Positions 36,177-38,530 of a DNA stretch of 64,000 nt are shown piece after piece. The notes below the pieces were generated by a model. The model was not told the DNA's origin. It did not search any database and saw only the letters and a program-made list of their open reading frames with translations. Source of the DNA: Clostridiales bacterium (lineage in GTDB: Bacteria > Bacillota > Clostridia > Christensenellales > Aristaeellaceae); assembly GCA_017569285.1 (NCBI GenBank), contig CP069419.1, positions 558,001-622,000 on the forward strand, written 5' to 3'. Both the position numbers and the translations under genes were made by a program. Numbering within the stretch: the stretch's first letter is position 1; each line of letters begins with the position of its first letter.

Positions 36177-36196
36177 CTCTTTCTCCATTATCGTCC

Positions 36197-36504
36197 GGAC
36201 TCGAACCTATGGTCACAATTCGATATGGTCGCCTGCCTTCGCTGTACGCTCGGCCGTCTCCCTATCTCATTGGACCTCCGATTCGCCCCGCAACCTCAAT
36301 CGGCGCGACTCCACACTGTGGAGATCGCTTGTTTCGGTTGACCTCACCTCTGACGATTTTCCGCCACTGGCGGTCGTCAGAGGTTCGCCCAACGGCAGCG
36401 CTCATCTCCGGTCTCCCCACGATCGTGGGGAGACCATAGGTACGAGCCTTGCGGTATCCCACCAACAGCAAGAGGGCCTTCCTTGCGGAAGGCCCTCTTG
36501 CTGT
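36197..36504. repeat. tRNA-derived repeats and palindromes downstream of tRNA-Val
   Basis: No credible gene. GGACTCGAACCTATG (36197-36211) is an exact copy of the T-arm of the tRNA at 36519-36533, in the same direction. On the plus strand, 36417-36464 is a degenerate copy of the tRNA 3' half (CCACG, then ATCGTGGGG, CATAGGTACGAG, TATCCCACCA) that lacks part of the anticodon loop. The two CCA ends face each other across a 25-base perfect stem (36458-36482 with 36487-36511, loop TTGC). More palindromes lie at 36410-36435 and 36346-36384 (nested hairpin) and 36309-36323. Confidence 0.75.
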
Positions 36505-36581
36505 TGGTGGGATTAGTAGGACTCGAACCTATGACCCCCACGATGTCAACGTGGTGCTCTAACCAACTGAGCTATAATCCC
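36505..36581 (-). tRNA. tRNA-Val (anticodon GAC)
   Basis: A complete cloverleaf on the minus strand: acceptor GGGATTA/TAATCCC, D arm GCTC/GAGC, anticodon stem CCACG/CGTGG with loop TTGACAT, T loop TTCGAGT, discriminator A and encoded CCA. The outer pair of the T stem is an A-C mismatch. The gene reads valine codon GTC. Its 3' end forms part of a long hairpin with the inverted copy downstream. Confidence 0.95.
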
Positions 36582-36648: not shown

Positions 36649-37602
36649 TCAGAGATCGACCGAACCGGTCCCGTTCTCGTTTTTTACCCAGTATGCCTTG
36701 CCTTCATCGGTACGGACATAAATGGATTCCACTTCCCCGACTTCACCGGTAACCTTCTCCAGGATATCGGCAGCAGTCAGGGTCTTGCCGCCCGGCATCT
36801 GGATAAACAGGCTGGAATAGACAGCTTTCGTATCGTCAATCCGCTTTTTCGGTGTCCGGCCGCGCCGGGAAGTTCCGGGCTTCAGTGAAACTCCATAAAG
36901 CTCGTGGGCTTTCCGGATAATTTCACTGCTCGGGTGAATCCGTCCAGCCTCATACGCAGCGATCGTTCCGGGTTTTACACCCAGCACATTCGCGGCGGCC
37001 GCCTGGGTCAGGCCCATTGCAGCGCGCAGTTCCCGGATCGTGGTGACGCTGTTGATATCAGCCGGCTCCAGGGATGCCGCGCTGCCGGCCAGGTTCCGGC
37101 TTCTTGTGCCGGGTTTCTTGCGCCGTTTCTCCATTGGAGCGATGGTCACATTGTACAGTTTCCGGATCTGGGCGGCAATCACCGGCCCGGGATTGGCCTT
37201 TCCGCTTTCATAGGCCGCAACCGTAGGCTGCCGGATCCCGATGGCCCTCGCCAGATCGTTCTGGGACAGGTTCTTCATCCGGCGCATTTCACGCACGGTA
37301 ATCGCAGGCTCCATTCGTCCGCTGTACTGGTCAATTCCACCGAGGTTGATCGCATTCTCATACCCTTTGGCCTTCAGCATTTCCTCCGCCTGATGGGACC
37401 AGGCACCGGTATAGCAGTACAGGAGGATTTTGGTATTGAATGTGGCAAGCCTGCGAATCTCATCCCGGATGTTTTCCAGGGTCATATGCAGTGCTCCGGG
37501 AATATGCCCCGCATCAAAGTCCGCCTCATCCCGCAGGTCAATCAGGAGACCTCCGTCATGGCTCTCGAATTCTGCGATTTCCTGTTCCATGAAGTTGTTC
37601 AT
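36649..37602 (-). CDS. Rhodanese - XRE HTH - XRE HTH - C-terminal small domain fusion
   Basis: Predicted cytoplasmic regulator sensing sulfane sulfur or a related thiol signal; function unproven. The 317 residues contain: rhodanese domain at about 15-98 with the active-loop cysteine C63 (CYTGAWS); a first XRE helix-turn-helix at about 102-152 (MRRMKNLSQNDLARAIGIRQ); a second at about 188-240 (LRAAMGLTQAAAANVLGVKP); a basic linker; and a ~60-residue C-terminal domain (VYSSLFIQMPGGKTLTAADI...) resembling DUF6465. The two HTH units look like a duplication. GAGGGG lies just before the ATG. Alternative: DNA-binding domains could serve protein contacts instead. Confidence 0.8.
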   Translation of the reverse strand: MNNFMEQEIAEFESHDGGLLIDLRDEADFDAGHIPGALHMTLENIRDEIRRLATFNTKILLYCYTGAWSHQAEEMLKAKGYENAINLGGIDQYSGRMEPAITVREMRRMKNLSQNDLARAIGIRQPTVAAYESGKANPGPVIAAQIRKLYNVTIAPMEKRRKKPGTRSRNLAGSAASLEPADINSVTTIRELRAAMGLTQAAAANVLGVKPGTIAAYEAGRIHPSSEIIRKAHELYGVSLKPGTSRRGRTPKKRIDDTKAVYSSLFIQMPGGKTLTAADILEKVTGEVGEVESIYVRTDEGKAYWVKNENGTGSVDL

Positions 37603-37742
37603 TTACCCCTCGCCTTTCTGTCTGATGGTACACATTAACAACCGTAATTCCGGTCCGTAATATTACGCCGGAACAAATCCGTGTTGAATTGTGACAGTTA
37701 ATTTGTCTGTTATTATTATACAACAAAAAATCATATAATCAA
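37603..37742 (-). promoter_or_regulatory. Promoter and leader of the rhodanese-HTH gene
   Basis: On the minus strand: TTGATT (37742-37737), 16 bases, TATAAT (37720-37715). In the leader, CGTAATATTACG (37656-37667) is a perfect 12-base palindrome flanked by TTCCGG and CCGGAA, a possible operator for the encoded HTH protein. Nothing else gene-like is visible here. Confidence 0.55.
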
Positions 37743-37996: not shown

Positions 37997-38530
37997 ATGA
38001 AAATCGGAAAAAGGATCCGGCAGCTGCGAATCCGCAACGGTCTCACGCAGGCGGAGCTCGCCAGCCGGTGTGAACTGACAAAGGGCTTTGTTTCCCAGCT
38101 GGAAAACGACCTGGCTACACCTTCCCTGCCCGCGCTGAACGACATTGTCGAAGCGCTCGGTACCAATATGTCGGCCTTCTTCTCAGAAGAGAAAGAACCC
38201 CGGCTGGTTTTCGGGAAGGATGATTTCTTTGAGGACGCGCGGGAGGATTACACAGTATCCTGGGTTGTGCCGGACGCCCAGAAAAACACCATGGAACCGA
38301 TTATCCTGACACTCAATCCGCACGGTTCCTCCCAGGTGATGATGCCCCACGAGGGGGAGGAATTCGGCCTGGTCCTCAGCGGAAGCGTCTGCCTGGTCAA
38401 CGGCGGCAAAAAACACCGGGTGAAAAAGGGAGAAACCTTCTACATCCGGGGAGATCAGGAACATTACCTGCAGAACGAAACAGCTTCGGCTGCCCGGGTC
38501 CTCTGGATCACGACCCCGCCGCTGTTTTAA
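37997..38530 (+). CDS. XRE-cupin regulator (PuuR-like) of the polyamine transporter
   Basis: Predicted repressor with an N-terminal helix-turn-helix (IRQLRIRNGLTQAELASRCELTKGFVSQLENDLATPSLPAL, residues about 8-50) and a C-terminal cupin (HEGEEFGLVLSGSVCLVNGGKKHRVKKGETFYIRGDQEHYLQNE, about 112-165) that likely binds a polyamine. The 177-residue length is typical of PuuR-type proteins. It lies 18 bases before potA, a common arrangement, so it probably controls the operon and itself. Palindrome-like sites lie over the promoter (37935-37972). Confidence 0.88.
   Translation: MKIGKRIRQLRIRNGLTQAELASRCELTKGFVSQLENDLATPSLPALNDIVEALGTNMSAFFSEEKEPRLVFGKDDFFEDAREDYTVSWVVPDAQKNTMEPIILTLNPHGSSQVMMPHEGEEFGLVLSGSVCLVNGGKKHRVKKGETFYIRGDQEHYLQNETASAARVLWITTPPLF

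Follow-up and report, generated by a model that had tools for sequence, protein, structure and literature searches.

A single gene in the 64,000-nucleotide stretch of clostridial DNA analyzed here (the window), which comes from a gut bacterium, joins an ordinary sulfur-transfer domain to two DNA-binding domains, raising the question of whether the sulfur state of the one could control DNA binding by the others. The gene (window 36649-37602, minus strand) starts with ATG and encodes a protein of 317 residues. Reading from the N-terminus, we identified a rhodanese domain (residues 1-98; 37309-37602), a first XRE-type helix-turn-helix or HTH (residues 99-157; 37132-37308), a second XRE-type HTH (residues 185-242; 36877-37050), and a DUF6465-like domain (residues 257-317; 36652-36834), all encoded on the minus strand. 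The original prediction that one chain carries these four parts was borne out by the open reading frame and by Pfam, with the DUF6465 match falling below threshold, and the observation of the fusion is far beyond chance. AlphaFold2, run with a seven-row alignment, returned a confident rhodanese domain, two helical HTH units connected through disordered linkers, and, at the C-terminus, a small domain rich in beta structure (mean pLDDT 75, pTM 0.41); because the pTM is low, the relative placement of the domains in this model is undefined.

To characterize the N-terminal domain, we compared it with known rhodaneses. Pfam assigned residues 15-94 to Rhodanese (PF00581) with 57.6 bits against a cut-off of 22.2, and the AlphaFold2 model of the domain matched the fold of GlpE (1gmx; Z 14.3, rmsd 1.7 over 94 residues) and that of PspE (Z 13.7). 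Aligned with GlpE, the active loop, CYTGAWS, needs no gap and is as long as the catalytic CYHGNSS loop. Its cysteine, Cys63 (codon at 37414-37416, minus strand), is kept in all seven fusions that we found and is the sole cysteine in four of them, namely the window's protein, its orthologue in a sister species (G015; 95% identical protein), and two more. The loop alignment and this invariance support the earlier proposal that Cys63 is catalytic, with the activity itself predicted from sequence. A loop position that is often R or K is Trp in the fusion protein, which we counted against a role in sulfur input, although GlpE has Ser there. PspE, a free-standing rhodanese with a single cysteine, was isolated carrying stable persulfide sulfur on that cysteine (PMC2593051), so a stable persulfide on Cys63 is chemically reasonable, and from the intact active loop we infer that the rhodanese can carry one. 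GlpE and PspE from Escherichia coli thus resemble the fusion in fold, active-loop length, and cysteine position, and PspE also in having one cysteine; they are, however, free-standing enzymes, whereas the rhodanese studied here is the N-terminal part of a predicted DNA-binding protein.

The two HTHs were both recognized by Pfam. HTH_3 was found twice, with 96.3 bits in total against a cut-off of 23 and its best stretch at residues 189-240, and the best stretch of HTH_19 was at residues 103-153. The HTH_3 fold is shared, far over the Pfam cut-off, with XRE/HTH_3 regulators (HipB, PezA, MqsA-type), from which the fusion differs in having two HTHs per chain, an added rhodanese, and no adjacent toxin partner. 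Between the genome of the window (G000, 3.27 Mb) and G015, dN/dS was 0.055 for the whole protein, 0.011 for the first HTH, 0.006 for the second, 0.019 for the DUF6465-like domain, 0.08 for the rhodanese, and 0.33 for the first linker, between the HTHs, which is free to vary; the segment values are rough, as the segments are short. All domains are under purifying selection, and the HTHs are the most constrained parts. The rhodanese is acidic (pI 4.65), as is the DUF6465-like domain; basic segments (pI 9.8-12) make up the block that runs from the first HTH (pI 11) through the second linker. We infer that the fusion protein binds DNA through two HTHs in one chain. The HTH tree was too short to resolve the first and second HTHs as old paralogues, and among the fusions it gave only weak grouping of the first HTHs of G000 and G004 and of the second HTHs of G000 and G003.

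The C-terminal domain is named DUF6465-like here because its match to DUF6465 (PF20069; residues 254-317), at 18.9 bits in the whole protein and 22.9 bits for the domain alone, stays under the Pfam gathering cut-off of 26. A 24-row alignment puts its identity to 23 further copies, from loci of the genus and family, at 31-54%; its predicted order is beta-beta-alpha-beta-beta-beta, and it was modeled with a pLDDT of 89. There was no clear match for this fold in the PDB (best Z 3.3), which is not proof of a new fold. Wherever N-terminal sequence was given, the aligned domains are preceded by a Lys/Ala-rich tail, an XRE HTH, or both, and the platform is therefore probably DNA-associated. PF20069 proteins share the C-terminal 60-residue domain with the fusion, as a sub-threshold match, but in the relatives, Lys/Ala-rich tails or a single HTH stand where the fusion has a rhodanese plus HTHs. 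It is likely, judging from these sequences, that a DNA-associated platform of XRE HTH and DUF6465 already existed when the rhodanese became joined to it. Separately, we observed many small proteins in the genus and family that have Lys/Ala-rich, histone-H1-like tails and a DUF6465-like end (L022, L026, L027, L029, L063, L105, L114, L119), some of them with an XRE HTH; these are possibly a nucleoid-associated family. No paper on DUF6465 was found in the literature searched.

Next, we determined how widely this architecture occurs. The fusion was present in 7 of 45 genomes of one genus and is missing from most of the species there; its distribution is patchy: of the 13 best-quality genomes of the genus, only that of the window has it. 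Two of the seven proteins are 95% identical, four others share 33-51% identity, and the remaining one, that of G009 (37%), has a single HTH; the DUF6465 domain is absent from two. Outside the genus, at the thresholds used, we found only single parts in samples of 396 genomes of the order, 391 of the class, and 398 of the phylum; scoring there was mostly confined to the five best candidates of each genome, and a distant XRE-rhodanese fusion with another sequence might have escaped notice. When 84,980 species were scanned by pattern, the same fusions were recovered, under titles naming uncultured or goat-gut Clostridia, along with stand-alone rhodaneses. We also considered mobile origins. The fusion had no match in phages or viral contigs, and among the plasmid matches listed, the rhodanese or the HTH part was matched separately, never both. 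Both fusions that contain a rhodanese and regulators linked to one are known, and ArsR-rhodanese fusions likewise place a rhodanese and a DNA-binding domain in one chain; their DNA-binding domain, however, is a winged-helix ArsR rather than XRE, and they lack DUF6465. The order of domains and the set of partners found here appear confined to one genus, and no paper describing a rhodanese-XRE-XRE-DUF6465 architecture was found in the literature searched. The architecture had been called unusual before these searches were made, and it is indeed not a common one.

We then examined the genomic neighborhood of the fusions. In G000, the neighbors are a tRNA-Val, a NUDIX gene, an XRE-cupin gene, and a polyamine-type ABC operon, and the last two also neighbor the fusion in G015. 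The XRE-cupin regulator gene (window 37997-38530, plus strand) is divergent, heads the polyamine-type ABC transporter operon, and is ordinary. Elsewhere, the fusion lies next to a YgjP-like peptidase gene (G004, with a 4 nt overlap), recD2 (G003), an M20 peptidase gene (G024), or CvpA-like, phosphodiester glycosidase, and lgt genes (G020). No sulfur-metabolism gene adjoins the fusion at any fusion locus examined, and since none recurs, gene context gives a sulfur regulon no support. The regulators CstR, SqrR, BigR, and FisR sense sulfane sulfur through two or three bridging cysteines (PMC9774590). The proposed likeness to CstR, SqrR/BigR, and FisR is that the sulfur state of a protein controls its DNA binding. 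Their folds, however, are those of CsoR, ArsR, and Fis, and the fusion has one cysteine, located in a catalytic rhodanese loop. Two features of the CstR, SqrR, and BigR type are accordingly missing from the fusion and its loci, namely at least two bridging sensing cysteines and a linked operon for sulfur oxidation or sulfur transfer.

The leader of the gene was inspected for a possible target. A candidate promoter, TTGATT-16-TATAAT (37715-37742, minus strand), is identical in G015. Between it and the start codon lies a 26-nt inverted repeat, TTCCGG-CGTA-N4-TACG-GN-CCGGAA (37648-37673, minus strand), a candidate operator or hairpin that encloses the 12-bp palindrome CGTAATATTACG (37656-37667), which had been proposed as the target of the protein. 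As proposed, the palindrome is exact and sits in the gene's own leader, and this is its sole exact occurrence in the 3.27-Mb genome; but its center is changed in G015, where the counterpart CGTAGTTTTACG is not intact, and the repeat is absent from the leaders of the five other fusions. The palindrome is therefore weakly supported as an operator. From the -35 box to 37632 (111 bp), there are only three substitutions between the two species, each within the palindrome or adjacent to it, compared with 17-37% difference just upstream. Two of the three fall in the loop and one in the bulge of the inverted repeat, leaving the arms identical, a reading of conserved arms that is post hoc and compares two sequences. 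The repeat folds alike in both species, with modest z-scores for the hairpin alone (-2.4 and -1.2), and matched no Rfam family. Conserved arms with a changed center fit an operator made of half-sites and, just as well, a hairpin of the leader RNA; we regard the repeat as a possible operator of the fusion protein, a claim that these data leave unsupported. No second copy was found in G000 with up to three mismatches, and therefore no regulon is visible; G015 has one site with two mismatches.

Taken together, the most likely explanation, to which we give a probability of roughly 0.4, is that of an orphan DNA-binding protein, probably a transcriptional regulator, in which sulfur is loaded onto an input domain. 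Counting against it are the lack of adjacent sulfur genes, the two or more cysteines of the known sulfane-sulfur regulators, the absence of the leader repeat from the other five fusions and of a second copy in G000, and the absence of the gene from most species of the genus. Such a protein would have arisen when a stand-alone rhodanese of the GlpE/PspE type joined the XRE-HTH and DUF6465 platform of the genus. The two HTHs of a single chain would bind DNA, with the gene's own leader as a plausible target, and the rhodanese would act as the input by taking up sulfur on Cys63 as a persulfide. The loaded or unloaded state of Cys63, or the docking of a partner that loads or unloads it, might then alter DNA binding or oligomerization. 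The original prediction also held that a persulfide on Cys63 could change DNA binding, and this coupling is speculative. Since there is no cysteine other than Cys63, a switch within one chain must be one of persulfide versus thiol, and an intramolecular di- to tetrasulfide bridge of the SqrR/BigR type is excluded; a bridge between two chains via Cys63 is possible. The strictest form of sensing, in which the loaded persulfide on a single cysteine directly switches the tandem-HTH platform without any bridge, as a one-component sensor, seems unlikely to us. If true, however, it would represent a chemistry unlike that of the known dithiol sulfane-sulfur regulators. Should the rhodanese gate DNA binding, an ordinary sulfur-transfer domain would have been turned into a single-cysteine transcriptional sensor, and gut anaerobes would have a regulator that responds to sulfur yet belongs to none of the CstR, SqrR/BigR, and FisR families. 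If there is no gating, this is still a rare fusion under strong selection, for which the genus offers natural variants with one or two HTHs and with or without DUF6465.

Other explanations draw on the same evidence. The protein could be a working sulfurtransferase whose HTHs merely tether or position the rhodanese at DNA or at a partner, with no sensing. It has a GlpE-like fold with the catalytic cysteine, and its genome has no other simple rhodanese of the single-domain type, only a 446-aa protein whose N-terminus is signal-like, so that a general sulfurtransferase function may fall to it; however, HTHs that are more constrained than the rhodanese are ill-suited to a passive tether, and most members of the genus manage without the gene, making this explanation a doubtful one. 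We hold it similarly improbable that the protein is mainly nucleoid-associated or architectural, like its DUF6465 relatives, with the rhodanese serving as a module for protein interaction or dimerization. The basic linkers of the fusion are consistent with this idea, as is the finding that DUF6465-like domains in the genus follow Lys/Ala-rich tails or an HTH plus such linkers, but the catalytic cysteine is invariant (7/7 fusions), the HTHs are strongly conserved, and two fusions lack the DUF6465 domain altogether.

It is quite unlikely, in our estimation, that the protein is a local autoregulator of unspecified signal that uses the leader inverted repeat as its operator and retains the sulfur domain as a vestigial or structural part. 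Such an autoregulator would be in keeping with the leader repeat, which is unique in the genome, has conserved arms, and lies just within the gene's own transcript. Yet this sequence could as easily be read as a hairpin in RNA, the center of its palindrome is not conserved, the leaders of the other fusions lack it, and the rhodanese, which this explanation would leave without a sulfur role, is itself under selection.

Finally, we observed a structured element of about 105 bp (window 36284-36392, minus strand) just beyond the tRNA-Val that neighbors the fusion gene. The element had 25 matches in G000 (further copies are loci L141-L154) and matches in 23 of the 24 other genomes of the genus searched; the 16 genomes from other genera of the order gave no match. 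Across 15 copies in G000, there were compensatory changes at 25 of 33 pairs, with 99.4% of cells pairing, and no shuffle or slide comparison comes near this covariation. No Rfam family was found for it. The element appears to be a structured RNA or a mobile repeat that has yet to be described, and it may merit more attention than the fusion. One copy (L142 2-409; G000:C1:1834051-1834458) lies inside a mutS2-like frame, identified by eye, that reads through it in frame with no stop, as if the element could enter genes and the added stretch of protein were tolerated. Directly behind the tRNA-Val(GAC), we found a perfect 27-bp inverted repeat with a GCAA loop (window 36453-36510) that includes the 3' end of the tRNA. 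About 300 bp past this repeat lies a tRNA T-arm-like fragment, CCATAGGTTCGAGTCC (window 36186-36215); such a fragment also follows the L141 copy, and TTCGAATCCC-like ends adjoin several other copies of the element.
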